A stretch of DNA of 35,906 nt. Origin: Deltaproteobacteria bacterium. GTDB lineage: Bacteria > Desulfobacterota > Syntrophia > Syntrophales > UBA2185. The notes under the pieces were generated by a model. The model was not told the DNA's origin and searched no databases. It worked only from the letters and a program-made list of their open reading frames with translations. Shown piece by piece: positions 7,935-13,997 of this stretch. The stretch lies in assembly GCA_026388545.1 (NCBI GenBank), contig JAPLJS010000112.1:1-35906 (forward strand), read 5' to 3'. Both the position numbers and the translations under genes were made by a program. Position 1 is the first letter of the stretch. Each line of letters begins with the position of its first letter.

Positions 7935-8357
7935 TCAGATTCCAATAAAAGCACCGAATTCCTTCAGAAAACGCTTTATATCCCCAAGTCTGGTCTGGAT
8001 GATCCGATACAGTTCTTTATCGTCAATGTCCCAGTAGATGTGTACCAGTCTGTTCCTGAATCTTGCCATCTGGATCAGAGCCGTCGTAAATTCTTTATCA
8101 AAGGCGCCCTGTTCAGCCATTACCCTGAATGTATCGGCATAATCCTCAGGTGTCCGGAATCTGTTTTTTGCAATAATGTGATTGCAAAGATCAACGGCCC
8201 CTTCTATGACAACGATCAGATTATACTTTGCGCTTCCTGTTTTATGGTGATCAGCGATAAATGTTTCCTCGGAAAGCTTCTGTAAATCCTCCAGCCTGCC
8301 GAGGGCAATAAGGATCTCAGATGTTATCTTCCTTACCTTGTCCTCATTAAACTCCAC
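7935..8357 (-). CDS. hepT: HepT-family HEPN ribonuclease toxin (DUF86)
   Basis: A 140-residue helical protein of the HepT/DUF86 HEPN family. The catalytic Rx4HxY motif is intact: R101-N-R-L-V-H106-I-Y108. Family knowledge: HepT is an mRNA or tRNA ribonuclease that its partner MntA neutralises by adding AMP groups to the Tyr of this motif. The start overlaps the end of mntA by 11 bases, the usual arrangement of this toxin-antitoxin class (type VII). The only large opposite-strand ORF here is its shadow. It is probably a plasmid-, phage- or island-maintenance or anti-phage module; the surrounding recombinase remnants fit that. Confidence 0.9.
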   Translation of the reverse strand: MEFNEDKVRKITSEILIALGRLEDLQKLSEETFIADHHKTGSAKYNLIVVIEGAVDLCNHIIAKNRFRTPEDYADTFRVMAEQGAFDKEFTTALIQMARFRNRLVHIYWDIDDKELYRIIQTRLGDIKRFLKEFGAFIGI

Positions 8358-8775
8358 GACCCAGCGCCTCCTTCAGATACAGTTTTCGATAAGGGGCAAA
8401 ATCAAAATAATGGCTGAAAGTCGATTCTTCAAAATCACTTCTGGCATCATCATCAAAGACGACAAGAGGTTTCCCGTGCTTGATAATATTATATCGGAAA
8501 GACAGGGGGGCGTCGTTCAATATCCTGACATCTACAGGATAGTTATTAATAACATTGGCAAGTTCTGTCTCAAGGTCAAGCTCCATTTGTAATGGGGATA
8601 AGGGTGCTGCTTTCAGATAAACAGCCACATCAATGTCCCTGAATTTCTCGTCCGTGATGAAAGAACCATGCACATACGCAAACACCAAATCGGGAAGCTT
8701 TTCCAAAAAGCTCCTGATATGGGTAATAATTTCTTCTTTAGTCTGCGTTGAAATTTGAAAATATATGCTTTTCAT
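8347..8775 (-). CDS. mntA: MntA-family minimal nucleotidyltransferase antitoxin
   Basis: A 142-residue protein of the minimal nucleotidyltransferase family. The catalytic signature is GSF at 37-39 followed by DID at 47-49 (G37-S38-x8-D47-x-D49), which coordinates metal and ATP. The third acidic residue is probably the Asp in YPVDVRIL. Family knowledge: MntA AMPylates the HepT toxin on its active-site Tyr and so inactivates it. It is the promoter-proximal gene of the pair. The start at 8775 has only a weak RBS (AAGGTTAG upstream). Confidence 0.88.
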   Translation of the reverse strand: MKSIYFQISTQTKEEIITHIRSFLEKLPDLVFAYVHGSFITDEKFRDIDVAVYLKAAPLSPLQMELDLETELANVINNYPVDVRILNDAPLSFRYNIIKHGKPLVVFDDDARSDFEESTFSHYFDFAPYRKLYLKEALGRGV

Positions 8776-9278: not shown

Positions 9279-9567
9279 ATGGATACGAAGCCGTTACTCT
9301 GGATAGGTAGCAGCAGAGAGGATCTCAAAAAGTTTCCAGGAGCGTTTAATGATGTTGCCGGTTTTGCCTTATATAAGGCCCAAATGGGTGGTAAACATGC
9401 GGCAGCAAAGCCATTAAAAGGGTTTCATTCTGCATGCTTTCCAGAAAAAGGCAAAGACTGGGATTGAAACACTGAAACAGGAGATTGATTTGATAAATAG
9501 TAGACTGAAGACAGCGTCAGAATACCATGAATTACGATTCAAAAATGAGGTATACCATGAAGGATAA
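9279..9567 (+). pseudogene. HigB/RelE-type toxin gene broken by an out-of-frame internal deletion
   Basis: The first frame encodes a typical phage-related HigB/Gp49-like N-terminus (WIGSSREDLKKFP, FALYKAQMGG, AAKPLKGF) and then runs out of frame to a stop at 9467. The family C-terminus is still present in another frame from about 9427: FILHAFQKKAKTGIETLKQE and on to the stop at 9565-9567. The central beta-strands of the family (usually an E-x-x-x-D-x-Y-R-A-V-Y-like stretch, about 30 residues) are missing, with KPLKGF joined directly to the LHAFQKK region. The toxin should therefore be dead. The decayed end still overlaps the antitoxin start by 11 bases, which shows the original operon layout. 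Confidence 0.8.
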
Positions 9568-9880
9568 AGTAACGATGAGTAGTGGGAATGTATTCGCAGA
9601 TATCGGGCTTCCAGATGCGGAAGAACGCCTGGCAAAAGCACAGCTTGCCCACAAAATCGCTGATATAATTAAGATACGCCATATTAGTCAGGCAGAGGCT
9701 GCAAGAATCCTTGGTACAGAACAGCCTAAAATTTCGGCTATCATGAATGGCAAGCTGTCGGGTTTTTCCCTGGAACGTCTCATTTATTTTCTTAATGTCC
9801 TTGGCAGTGACGTGCAAATAATTGTTAAACCAAAACCGCCACGTCGTAAATCTGCTGCCCTGGAAGTTGTTTTCGCGTGA
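9557..9880 (+). CDS. HigA-type antitoxin (XRE helix-turn-helix), partner toxin inactivated
   Basis: A 107-residue protein with a helix-turn-helix domain at about residues 40-80 (ISQAEAARILGTEQPKISAI; LERLIYFLNVLGSDVQI). This is the HigA-like antitoxin type that follows Gp49-like HigB toxins. I chose the ATG at 9557 because GAGG lies 6 bases upstream; in-frame ATGs at 9527 and 9545 would extend it into the toxin remnant. The frame is intact while the toxin is not. It probably still binds the palindrome at 9251-9270 and represses its own promoter, which is inference. Confidence 0.85.
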   Translation: MKDKVTMSSGNVFADIGLPDAEERLAKAQLAHKIADIIKIRHISQAEAARILGTEQPKISAIMNGKLSGFSLERLIYFLNVLGSDVQIIVKPKPPRRKSAALEVVFA

Positions 9881-11070: not shown

Positions 11071-12171
11071 ATGAATATTGAAGTATTGAAATATCGTCAG
11101 AAGGATAAAGATATATTTATTTTTTCGGCTGAACCGAACTATATCAAAAAATTAGTTAAGATCAGTGATATTTCTGCCGGTGATGATAATTTCCAGCGCC
11201 CATTTGATCCTAAGAGAATTATCGAAATTAGGAACTATGTGTCAGGGAAAGATAAGCTTTATAAGAAGGGGAAAGAGATTTATGCAAAAGGGTATATACC
11301 TAATGCAATCGTTCTGAATTTGAGTTCTCGGTACAAACTGACAGAAAGTGACAAAAAGTTCTATTTAAATTTTCCTGATACAGAAAGTGTAAGTAAATTT
11401 AAAGAATCAATTGAGATAATTGACGGACAGCATAGGCTGTTGGCATTCAATGAGGAATGTGTACATGATTTAGAAAAACAACCATATTTGATGTGTTTCG
11501 TAGCCTTTATAAATTTGTCGAGTGATGAAAAGAAAGAGATATTTATGGTTTTGAATGAACGTCAGAAAACCGTAGATAAGAACATCTTATTACGACACAA
11601 AAAATTGCTGAATTTACTTTTGGATGAAGAGGAAACTAGATATGAAGTAATTGCGAAACTTAATGATGAAAATGATTCACCATTTTATAATAGAGTAATC
11701 ATGGCTGGGGAAAAGAAAAAGAATGCATTTAAGGCTAGTTCAATAGACGAAATACTAAGTTCGTCAAAAGCACTTGACAAATTAATTGATTCGAAAAATC
11801 AGATCAGTGTAAAACATTACAAAGTATTTAAGAACTATTTAAATGCGTGGCAACAAAATTTCAAAGGTGCTTGGGCTGATAGTAAAAATACTTTATCAAA
11901 GGTTTCAGGCGTCAGATTTATGTTTTATTTATTTCCATCGTTTTATGAAGTGCTTAAAATGAGGGATGGTGGCAAAGACTTTCAGGTATCAGCTTTTTCT
12001 GCTATAGTACAGGAACTAAAAAATAATCACTTTAATGATTCATTTGACTTGAAGAAAGCTGGCAAATTTCAGTTTTTTCAAGATAAGACCAGTATTGGTA
12101 AATTAGCAAATACGTTGGGGAAAGAGCTTGTTGAACAATATCAAGATCGAGGAGATGATATTCTAGTTTGA
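11071..12171 (+). CDS. DGQHR-domain protein (DndB-like superfamily)
   Basis: A 366-residue protein with the DGQHR motif at residues 118-122, within IEIIDGQHRLLAF, and FMVLNERQKTVDKN downstream. These are the two hallmarks of the DGQHR/DndB-related, ParB-superfamily-like fold. Members occur in DNA phosphorothioation (DndB) and 7-deazaguanine DNA modification (DpdB) systems and as stand-alone genes in defence islands. No dndC, dndD, dndE or dpd genes are in this window. It is very AT-rich compared with kdp or nuo genes, which signals transfer. It forms a two-gene unit with the next ORF, starting 13 bases after its stop. The molecular function is unproven; DNA binding or nucleotide-dependent sensing is inferred from family. 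Confidence 0.85.
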   Translation: MNIEVLKYRQKDKDIFIFSAEPNYIKKLVKISDISAGDDNFQRPFDPKRIIEIRNYVSGKDKLYKKGKEIYAKGYIPNAIVLNLSSRYKLTESDKKFYLNFPDTESVSKFKESIEIIDGQHRLLAFNEECVHDLEKQPYLMCFVAFINLSSDEKKEIFMVLNERQKTVDKNILLRHKKLLNLLLDEEETRYEVIAKLNDENDSPFYNRVIMAGEKKKNAFKASSIDEILSSSKALDKLIDSKNQISVKHYKVFKNYLNAWQQNFKGAWADSKNTLSKVSGVRFMFYLFPSFYEVLKMRDGGKDFQVSAFSAIVQELKNNHFNDSFDLKKAGKFQFFQDKTSIGKLANTLGKELVEQYQDRGDDILV

Positions 12172-12184
12172 TTTAGGTGCTGGT

Positions 12185-12952
12185 ATGGTTAAGTTGGGTA
12201 ATCTGACAATTTCAAAAATTGATAAAGTAACTTTTGGCTACGAGAAATTAATTCTAGATAGGCTGAAATTATTTGATTTTGCTAAGTCAGCGATCGGGGA
12301 GTATTGTCTAAGTAAGGCAGATCAACTGAAAGGTTATGATTTTCAGAATTTTAAGGGAAGATTTCAGACTATTAAATTTAGGGCTGACAGAGAAATCAAA
12401 AGCATTAAATATGATCAAATGGTTAATATTGGAAATGGTTTTATTGAGTCCGAATTATCTGATGCGATTTTTGTTTTAAATATCGCAAATTTTGAACAAT
12501 GGATTTTAGAAATATTGAAAATTATGATTATGCAGAATCCTGATATGTTTGAAGGAGACAAAAAGATCGATTTATCTATGATCCGAGAATCTGTTGACTT
12601 AGACAATTTATGGGAAAGAATAGTTGAGCGATATTTGATTGGTCTTCCTTATGACGGAATGAAAAAAATGATAGAAAGGGTTGTCAAAATTTTCGAAATA
12701 AATAAATCAGTTATCACAACTGACCACATAGGTAAAATTAATGAATATAGCCAATGCCGTAACTTGATTGTCCATAATCATAAAATTGTTAATGAGGCTT
12801 ATGTTAGGAAATCAGGTAAGTTTGCAAGATACAAACAGGGTGACAGTATCAGTATCAACGAAAAGATACTATTTGACGAGGGAGATGCATTATTAAGATT
12901 TATGCAGGATATTAGAAATTATCTTGGAAAAAAAGTAAAAAAGAATCCTTAG
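12185..12952 (+). CDS. Candidate HEPN-type protein, partner of the DGQHR gene
   Basis: I do not recognise the full-length 255-residue protein. It is soluble and mostly helical. Near the C-terminus it has R192-N-L-I-V-H197 followed by N-H199, within a helix context (QCRNLIVHNHKIVNEAY). This fits the Rx4-6H catalytic motif of HEPN ribonucleases of the large MAE_28990/RiboL-PSP-like kind. The rest (FVLNIANFEQWILEILKIMI) resembles the packing helix of such domains. Same AT-rich composition as the DGQHR gene and a 13-base gap suggest co-transcription. The HEPN call rests on motif and predicted helices only; a role as toxic RNase effector is inference. Confidence 0.6.
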   Translation: MVKLGNLTISKIDKVTFGYEKLILDRLKLFDFAKSAIGEYCLSKADQLKGYDFQNFKGRFQTIKFRADREIKSIKYDQMVNIGNGFIESELSDAIFVLNIANFEQWILEILKIMIMQNPDMFEGDKKIDLSMIRESVDLDNLWERIVERYLIGLPYDGMKKMIERVVKIFEINKSVITTDHIGKINEYSQCRNLIVHNHKIVNEAYVRKSGKFARYKQGDSISINEKILFDEGDALLRFMQDIRNYLGKKVKKNP

Positions 12953-13086
12953 ATATGCTGGACGGTCATATTCTATTGGTAATCGACATACTTTTTAAAA
13001 GGATTTATTGTAAAATATTTGACCCTATTCTGACCCTGAAAAAAAGAACCTGCCAAAAAATAAAACATTGTTATAACTAAAGAAAT
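12953..13086. other. Boundary between accessory island and ssrA 3' end
   Basis: AT-rich spacer without a gene. It contains the short direct repeat TGACCCT (around 13020 and 13031). The 3' end of ssrA starts at 13087. No duplicate of the ssrA 3' end was found elsewhere in the window, so an att repeat cannot be shown. Confidence 0.4.
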
Positions 13087-13441
13087 TGGTGGAGGCGGCG
13101 GGAATCGAACCCGCGTCCGAAAATATTCCACTGTAGCTTCTACATACATAGCCTCTGTTTTAATTTCACTCTCGAAATCTCCCGGAGGCAGGATTCATCA
13201 AGAGCTATCCCTACTGGATTTTCGCCCTTCTCGCTTCGGGAAAGTGAGATCAGCTATCCTGCCTTTATGACGCCCTGTGCTGATTCGGCAGGCGGAATCA
13301 GAAGGACGTAGCCGTCTATGCGGCTAAAGCGTAATCGTAATTGCTTGCGCTTATATGTTTCCTACCTGTTTAACGAGGCCTGGTAGGAACCTCGGTATGC
13401 CACCACAGCTTCCACATCCCCGTCGAAACCTTTACGCCCCC
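13087..13441 (-). ncRNA. ssrA: tmRNA (ssrA)
   Basis: The reverse strand begins GGGGGCGTAAAGGTTTCGAC and ends with the T-arm (GGTTCGATTCCCGCC) and encoded ACCA. The acceptor stem GGGGGCG pairs with CGCCTCC, with one G-U. The tag reading frame at 13319-13348 encodes ASNYDYALAA followed by TAG, the normal degradation tag type. tmRNA rescues stalled ribosomes and marks the nascent protein for proteolysis, together with SmpB, encoded just upstream. The 3' end faces the accessory island, and ssrA 3' ends are common phage and island integration sites. A very similar gene layout (smpB-ssrA) is known from many bacteria. Confidence 0.96.
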
Positions 13442-13473
13442 ATTATGGAGTGGATAGAAAACTGTTATGAGAT

Positions 13474-13502
13474 AATATAATGCGGGACATCTTTCTAGTC
13501 AA
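13474..13502 (-). promoter_or_regulatory. Predicted sigma-70 promoter of ssrA
   Basis: On the minus strand TTGACT (-35, 13497-13502) is 17 bases from TATATT (-10, 13474-13479). Transcription would start about 25 bases upstream of the mature tmRNA, leaving a leader for RNase P to remove. It lies directly after the smpB stop. Confidence 0.7.
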
Positions 13503-13529
13503 GTTAATTCAGTCAGTCCGTGAACTGTC

Positions 13530-13997
13530 TTATCCTTTTCCACGCAGTCCCCGATCGATTTCCCTCCTATCCTCTTTGTTCTTGAGGCTTTCCCGTTTAT
13601 CGTACAGCCTCTTCCCCCGTCCAACACCGATCTCTATTTTTATCTTTCCGTTCTTGAAGTATACTTTTAGAGGAATGAGAGCAAGTCCCTTTTCTCTAGA
13701 CCTTCCGTATAGCCGCTTGATCTCCCCCTTATTAAGGAGAAGTTTCCTAACCCTCAGCGGATCATGGTTTGAACGGTTGCCGAAAGAGTAAGGACTGATG
13801 TGCATTTCATGGATAAATACCTCCCCGTCCTTTACCATGGCATAACTGTCCTTAAGATTTGCCTTCCCCTCCCGGAGCGCCTTCACTTCCGTACCCACAA
13901 GGACGATCCCTGCCTCATAGGTATCGTCTATGAAGTAGTTCAACCGCGCGGTTTTATTCTGGGCGATTATTTTTTCTGCTGACTGTTTTTTAACCAT
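13530..13997 (-). CDS. smpB: SmpB, tmRNA-binding protein
   Basis: A 155-residue protein, the normal size, with SmpB motifs: [38 protein letters not shown], and the C-terminal basic tail ([20 protein letters not shown]). It binds tmRNA and places it in the ribosomal A site during trans-translation. GAGG lies about 5 bases before the ATG. Its RNA partner ssrA is the next gene downstream on the same strand. Confidence 0.97.

Follow-up and report, generated by a model that had tools for sequence, protein, structure and literature searches.

The DNA analyzed here (the window) comprises positions 1 to 35,906 of contig JAPLJS010000112.1 from the Deltaproteobacteria bacterium assembly GCA_026388545.1 (Syntrophia; Syntrophales; UBA2185), and our analyses focused on two of its genes, hereafter P0001 and P0002. 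The P0001 gene (11071..12171, + strand) encodes a DGQHR/DndB-superfamily protein of the ParB/sulfiredoxin type with 366 amino acid residues, as assigned by TIGR03187, PF14072 and invariant motifs. The P0002 gene (12185..12952, + strand) encodes a probable HEPN ribonuclease of 255 amino acid residues, as judged from a PADLOC CARF_HEPN match, invariant residues and a low-confidence fold. Both genes are intact, and the DGQHR gene is positioned directly upstream of its partner with a gap of 13 bases. The DGQHR motif occupies residues 118–122 of P0001. RNLIVH at residues 192–197 (codons at 12758..12775, + strand), which is conserved as an R-x4-H motif in homologs, is the sole R-x4-H motif of P0002. 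The longest stop-free run in 300 shuffles of the pair DNA was 162 codons; therefore, both open reading frames (ORFs) are real. The GC contents of the two genes were 0.31–0.32, compared with 0.40–0.47 for the seven nearest genes measured. GC at third codon positions (GC3) was 0.29 in both genes, 0.38–0.54 in seven nearby genes and 0.70 in kdpB, so the two genes share an extreme composition. The initial annotation, which was made from the sequence alone, had placed the two ORFs, the 13-base gap and both motifs at the same positions and had described the pair as very AT-rich, with all of which our results agree.

P0001 exceeded the curated cut-offs of TIGR03187 (DGQHR; 115 vs. 58.85 bits) and PF14072 (DndB; 43.9 vs. 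29.1 bits), confirming the earlier placement of the first protein in the DndB/DGQHR superfamily. Its QR pair (Q42-R43), DGQHR motif (D118-R122) and FxxxN motif (F158xxxN162) were invariant in alignments A1 and A3. In the available part of a 2015 study, these three motifs are given as features of the domain, together with a kinship to GmrS (DUF262) and the ParB/sulfiredoxin fold (PMC4619093). P0001 matched the DpdB model NF041060 with an E value of 1.6e-21, but with only 76.6 bits against an equivalog cut-off of 300 bits. Similarly, it scored 53.6 bits against the model of Dnd DGQHR protein 1 (TIGR04172), whose equivalog cut-off is 450 bits. As both equivalog cut-offs were missed, P0001 is neither DpdB nor the Dnd DGQHR protein. 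It is not a GmrSD/DUF262 protein either, given that its motif is DGQHR instead of DGQQR and that the Pfam scan yielded DndB only, and no match to a nucleotidyltransferase was found in Pfam or NCBIfam. P0001 was present in 1 of the 155 genomes of the order, which was its own genome (G000), and matches at 1e-8 were found in 15 of 395 genomes of the phylum, G000 counted. A single-sequence scan of viral contigs with P0001 returned nothing useful, and a sequence search of solved structures returned no relevant match. DGQHR proteins are widespread, and we know of no established function for them outside the Dnd and Dpd systems.

The R-x4-H motif of P0002 is weak evidence when taken alone, because R[ND]x3H arose in 2.1% and the looser R[NDHQ]x3-5H in 8.3% of shuffled P0002 sequences (20,000 trials); its conservation in homologs is what counts. 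Among P0002 and four homologs with identities of 24–39%, the residues L154, E187, R192, H197, N198, V202, Y206, and G219 were invariant, and the residue following the arginine of the motif was either N or D. Residues 96–204 of P0002 matched the PADLOC model CARF1--CARF_HEPN at a sub-threshold E value of 0.0019. The P0002-family alignment A9 (five rows, two of which are fragments) had three PADLOC matches up to an E value of 5, all of which were to HEPN models (CARF_HEPN, 0.0019 and 0.025; RTasHEPN, 0.061). In addition, one P0002 homolog touched the Pfam model Csm6_HEPN (E value of 0.071). Six of the first 11 structural rows for an AlphaFold model of P0002 were titled HEPN or HepT (Z scores of 6.9, 6.7, 6.6, 6.3, 6.2, and 5.7). 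Another of these 11 rows was 5yep (SO_3166), and SO_3166 is called a HEPN member in the accessible text of PMC4621449. These structural rows count as weak support, since the model was built from two rows and had a pLDDT of 38.5.

Several results speak against the HEPN assignment. In addition to the low pLDDT of the model, structural Z scores below ~13 can be due to chance for helical bundles according to the note of the tool, and human IKK1 and IKK2 were also among the structural rows (Z scores of 6.6 and 5.9). P0002 had no Pfam match and no NCBIfam HEPN match, its full-length homologs L142, L140, and L024 had no PADLOC match, and hhalign comparisons of the P0002-family profile with the MAE_28990-type, A8 (see below) and MNT-type HEPN sets were all negative. 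Taken together, the invariant motif residues, the sub-threshold PADLOC match and the low-confidence fold make it likely that P0002 is a HEPN protein, and it is a predicted RNase. The earlier assignment of the second protein to HEPN thus stands as probable on the conservation of R192 and H197, although Pfam and NCBIfam gave no HEPN match and the agreeing fold model is of low confidence. Two specific HEPN families were rejected. P0002 is not in the MAE_28990 HEPN family, as neither P0002 nor G000 had a PF18737 match, and it is not in the A8 family, as G000 contained no A8 match and the hhalign probability of alignment A6 vs. A8 was 0.1. HepT and PF05168 matches were also not found for P0002. A profile of the motif region identified P0002 homologs in G734 and G723 (3 of the 155 order genomes with G000) as well as in the viral contig L140, and an earlier search had identified one in G071 and, in G123, one that is broken (with G000, 3 of the 395 phylum genomes). 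A single-sequence scan of viral contigs with P0002, a search of viral contigs with alignment A2 and tblastn of P0002 in plasmids and phages returned nothing useful, and sequence searches of solved structures with P0002 and alignment A6 gave no relevant match.

Among the loci sampled, the exact pair fails as a conserved system. The pairing of P0001 with P0002 was seen once among the genomes sampled. Of 354 confirmed DGQHR loci in genome contigs, the analysis covered the best 80, which is a sample and not a census. Among these 80 loci, the closest relative of P0001 was L051 from a metagenome-assembled genome of the Oscillospiraceae, which was 34% identical to P0001 and had no close same-strand gene downstream. 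Matches were found in 3 of 300 Oscillospiraceae genomes, that of L051 counted. In a tree of 69 DGQHR proteins, for which the long class was sampled at one in eight, P0001 was joined with L051, L136, and L137 at 100/100. An HNH gene overlaps the stop of the DGQHR gene in L136 (genome G480), while L137 (genome G560) has downstream only an unrelated-looking ORF of 112 amino acid residues, 44 bases on, and no recognizable partner. From the side of P0002, DGQHR was absent in every frame of the 6–15 kb around the homologs of G734, G123, and L140, so that 0 of 3 readable cases had DGQHR beside the P0002 homolog. The upstream regions of the homologs in G071 and G723 are cut by the contig end, and no DGQHR was present in the remaining sequences. 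Moreover, a search for P0002 in nine genomes that carry short DGQHR genes was negative, albeit without a positive control. All of these results weigh against a module made of exactly these two families, and the conserved co-occurrence of the two genes raised by the initial annotation did not hold.

Different from the exact pair, a wider layout was found repeatedly, in which DGQHR genes have HEPN-like or nuclease neighbors. The search for viral DGQHR genes by alignment gave at least 600 candidates, from which 22 loci were drawn, again a sample and not a census. An ORF with R[NDEHQ]x3Y was located within 60 bases after the DGQHR gene in 15 of these 22 loci, and phage and plasmid records displayed the same gene order. 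Fifteen of the partner proteins from viral and genome contigs formed alignment A8, in which one protein was 52% and the others were 13–21% identical to the first row. Y88, R173, and Y178 were invariant in A8, while H135 and W139 were found in at least 90% of the rows. To count the partners, short DGQHR genes were defined as those encoding <460 amino acid residues, excluding that of the window (49 distinct genes), and a partner had to lie within 60 bases downstream; L001–L004, L141, L147, and L166 were left out, identical surroundings were counted once, and the 11 genes encoding 460–600 residues and the 70 longer ones were tallied apart. An A8-family gene was directly downstream of 21 of the 49 short DGQHR genes and another ORF of 11, and the other 17 had no gene within 60 bases downstream, which speaks against the module proposed below. 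Fourteen of the 21 A8-partnered loci had built the profile, L028 nearly duplicates a row and the remaining six were independent (L005, L019, L027, L047, L175, and L176), of which L175 and L176 favor A8 in the count because they were fetched with A8. A methylase-type PPY motif was found in a neighbor of 7 of the 21 A8-type pairs (assigned by motif, with Pfam or PADLOC in single cases). Other short DGQHR genes had HNH neighbors either downstream (L136) or upstream (L026 and L006), and that of L055 had a downstream gene of metallo-beta-lactamase fold. The partner type followed the DGQHR tree, with 5 changes for A8 against a shuffled mean of 18.3, and P0001 was in another clade than the A8-partnered genes. 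A search of the 395 phylum genomes with A8 that was not steered by DGQHR matched nine of them. Each of the three strong matches (E < 1e-9) immediately follows a DGQHR gene. The six weak matches aligned around one helix only, and five of them were beside an ORF that reads as nucleotidyltransferase-like in translation. In the Pf-type filamentous phage PfAC19, the DGQHR gene and the A8-family gene are next to a repressor (L027 2974-4953).

The model of an A8 member from Geobacter argillaceus had a pLDDT of 70.6 and a pTM of 0.76. Its best structural rows were 4nqf (HEPN; Z score of 9.3) and 2hsb (AF_0298 HEPN; Z score of 8.9, 2.6 Å over 117 residues), followed by 1ufb (TT1696; Z score of 7.1), which we take to be a HEPN protein as well, and the next rows were at 5.7 and 4.3. 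These HEPN rows come from the second pass of VIA-align over its list. Foldseek of the same model returned nothing at E ≤ 0.001, and its Z scores also lie below the ~13 under which matches of helical bundles can be due to chance, both of which count against this evidence. In addition, a sequence search of solved structures with A8 gave no relevant match. The A8 profile matched MNT-partnered (PF05168-type) HEPN proteins with a probability of 94.4 over 59 columns, and one of those rows passes PF05168; this match is partly circular, because the HEPN rows had been fetched with A8. HEPN proteins of the AbiV and AF0298 types are described as missing the motif histidine and having another conserved histidine N-terminal to it in the part of PMC3710099 that was available. 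With a tyrosine in place of the motif histidine and a nearly invariant histidine upstream, A8 fits this description. Among A8 proteins and their relatives, PADLOC matched none of the five tested, one of 15 had a weak PHROG match and one of seven had a sub-threshold PF05168 match (L035, 0.0022). The R-x4-Y partners form a candidate effector family of considerable size, which in the members scanned is hardly covered by the models of Pfam, PADLOC and PHROGs.

Downstream of the pair, after 134 bases, lies the 3' end of ssrA, the transfer-messenger RNA (tmRNA) gene identified by ARAGORN (13087..13441, - strand; tag ASNYDYALAA). A query of window positions 13000–13530 matched 8 of the nine family genomes searched, G000 counted. 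The matches of five relatives reach the ssrA 3' end, of which those of G777, G774, and G778 stop within the contig at window positions 13083–13087. The homology of G773 ends at 13086, where its contig ends as well, and that of G771 continues to 13063. Locus L162 of G773 contains two copies of the ssrA end, one of 45 bp (93% identity; window positions 13069–13113, L162 1263–1307) and one of 29 bp (100%; L162 7113–7141). The 45-bp copy adjoins a gene whose product has a Phage_integrase domain as well as SAM-like and arm-binding domains. Given that the homology of the relatives stops at the ssrA end and that the copy in G773 is beside an integrase gene, the ssrA 3' end (13085..13113) is used for integration in this family. 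Searches of G000 gave this end only once; any element there is therefore a remnant, and an insertion of the pair at ssrA is suggested by where the homology of the relatives stops and not by paired att sites. Two close copies of TGACCCT are located between the pair and ssrA (13020–13042), which could be integrase arm sites or due to chance. Upstream of the pair, the window contains a complete MntA/HepT (type VII) toxin-antitoxin pair (7935–8775, - strand), both members of which exceed the NCBIfam cut-offs, a gene for a cNMP-binding protein and an HTH_37 regulator gene (PF13744, 3.7e-25; 9527–9880). The last is preceded by an ORF of 62 amino acid residues without Pfam match (both within 9279–9880), and the two are possibly a decayed HigB/HigA-like pair. 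With these genes and ssrA around the pair, accessory island is a fair description, as had been suggested. No methylase, dpd or dnd genes were recognized by eye among the ORFs of the window, for which no profile scan was made.

Our favored interpretation, to which we assign a probability of about 0.48, is that the pair is a small two-gene conflict (defense) module in which a DGQHR sensor/repressor is combined with a HEPN RNase. Both genes would have arrived together, by integration at ssrA. P0001 would be made first, from the same transcript as P0002, and, by analogy with DndB and DpdB, it would bind DNA and nucleoside triphosphates. It may restrain P0002 by binding P0002, its operon or both. 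Infecting DNA or a nucleotide imbalance would then change the state of P0001 and release P0002, a putative HEPN endoribonuclease whose R192 and H197 would cut RNA, so that growth would stop. That P0001 may be the regulator or sensor holding back the RNase until infection follows from the published role of HEPN RNases as suicide effectors, as given in the accessible text of PMC10853773 and PMC12839542. The sensor-effector logic and the defense role proposed by the initial annotation may apply, the defense presumably being against phages. The pair of the window was probably assembled independently, as one version of the wider layout of DGQHR with HEPN-like or nuclease genes. More tentatively, short DGQHR genes followed by HEPN-fold genes may constitute a general unnamed two-gene defense system of prophages, plasmids and islands. 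DGQHR would be its common sensor or governor, and effectors would have been swapped several times among R-x4-Y HEPN-like proteins with the upstream histidine, HNH, metallo-beta-lactamase-fold and canonical R-x4-H HEPN proteins, the pair of the window being an independent re-invention. Should DGQHR proteins indeed govern toxic effectors that can be interchanged, the regulation of phosphorothioates, restriction resembling type IV and abortive infection through RNases would be linked by a single sensor logic.

Part of the same evidence is also compatible with other explanations. The order of regulator then toxin, the 13-base gap and the MntA/HepT pair in the same island would suit a plain toxin-antitoxin pair, in which P0001 is the autorepressor and antitoxin (transcriptional repression is ascribed to DndB) and P0002 is the RNase toxin, and which stabilizes a mobile element without dedicated phage sensing. 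However, relatives of P0001 occur without recognizable partners, unlike an obligate antitoxin, and the PPY methylase-type neighbors of A8-type pairs fit restriction or defense better. In addition, no inverted repeat was found in 348 bases around the P0001 start at the settings used, which weighs against such an autorepressor and also against the defense module. We therefore regard a toxin-antitoxin pair as unlikely. It seems similarly doubtful that two unrelated single-gene defense cargoes came to lie side by side at ssrA by chance, each working alone. Such an origin would account for P0002-type genes alone in G734, G123 (the broken copy) and L140, for P0001-type genes alone in L051 and L137 and for the two other genomes of the order that have P0002 homologs and no P0001 match, but not for the same strand, the 13-base gap and an equal GC3 of 0.29 far below that of the neighbors, nor for the general layout of DGQHR with a downstream effector.

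The two proteins could also be orphan subunits of a DpdB/DndB-like modification or modification-dependent system, with P0002 as an accessory RNase and the modification genes either lost or acting in trans. The DpdB match of P0001 and the methylase-type neighbors of other DGQHR genes, which are PPY-type in the A8-type pairs mentioned above and D12-type in 48 of 70 long DGQHR loci, are in line with this explanation. It is nevertheless very improbable, given how far P0001 falls below both equivalog cut-offs and that no modification gene was recognized by eye in the window.

Compared with known systems, P0001 has its domain in common with DndB and DpdB, including DGQHR, FxxxN and the QR pair, and scores above the cut-offs of the domain models. 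Different from them, it misses both equivalog cut-offs widely, its partner is HEPN-type and the window has no Dnd or Dpd modification gene recognizable by eye. Similar to the operons of MAE_28990 HEPN, a gene of the ParB/sulfiredoxin superfamily is next to a HEPN gene; in those operons, however, the ParB partner looks DUF262-like, while P0002 has neither a PF18737 match nor an adjacent methylase. L169 and L170 contain a DUF262-type gene with a PF18737 HEPN gene and a methylase gene, and L171 contains a DUF262-type gene with a HEPN gene (DUF262 and methylase by reading), which is the published ParB-HEPN layout, here in the phylum of the window. The DGQHR–A8 pairs of prophages and islands likewise consist of a short DGQHR gene followed by that of a helical protein of predicted HEPN-like fold. 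They differ in that P0002 has the canonical histidine while A8 has a tyrosine and the nearly invariant upstream histidine, and in the clade of P0001. MntA/HepT also has two genes, one of which encodes a (probable) HEPN RNase with R-x4-H; in contrast, P0001 is not a nucleotidyltransferase and P0002 matches neither HepT nor PF05168. In the GmrSD type IV restriction system (DUF262 and HNH), a ParB/sulfiredoxin-fold protein with a DGQ-motif is coupled to a nuclease, and the HNH neighbor of the G480 member in the clade of P0001 resembles this arrangement. P0001, however, has DGQHR and no DUF262 match, and the effector here is HEPN-type.

As far as the available text of the sources goes, HEPN is among the nucleases of Dnd neighborhoods and is also fused to DndF (PMC10853773), and HEPN occurs in Dnd loci, which often hold DndB (PMC3506569, PMC10853773). 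HEPN genes in operons with ParB-type genes have been tabulated (Anantharaman et al., 2013; PMC3710099), including MAE_28990 HEPN with a ParB nuclease and a DNA methylase and RiboL-PSP HEPN with ParB. A stand-alone two-gene layout of DGQHR and HEPN was not found in the literature searched, which leaves most subscription journals outside its coverage. The description of the pair as an undescribed module should be softened, because operons of ParB-type and HEPN genes have already been published, as have Dnd loci that contain HEPN.

Longer DGQHR proteins had other surroundings. Eight of the 11 genes encoding 460–600 amino acid residues had a partner of ~420 residues with RNxxSY. In L021, L031, L043, L050, L066, L131, L132, and L134, this protein follows a DGQHR protein of the ~500-residue class, and a DNA adenine methylase is also present in several loci of this class. 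No relevant Pfam match was found for three members of the partner family and no PADLOC match for one. The long DGQHR proteins of ~750–800 residues (L058–L130), which make up most of the best 80 of 354 genome loci, possess an extra N-terminal part, for which L061 had a weak match to a Card1-like endonuclease (0.032). Their D12-methylase-type neighbors were assigned by motif, with one checked by Pfam, and a long DGQHR protein with such a neighbor is a possible two-gene restriction-modification system. The neighbor labels 'MNT,' 'DUF262-type,' 'HIT,' 'pta,' 'alaS,' and 'folC' reflect a reading of the translations. Finally, a DGQHR clade from relatives in the phylum (L007, L009–L012, and L014–L017), in which no nuclease partner was seen, is perhaps not involved in defense at all, and several of its genes adjoin an FAD-dependent oxidoreductase-like gene.

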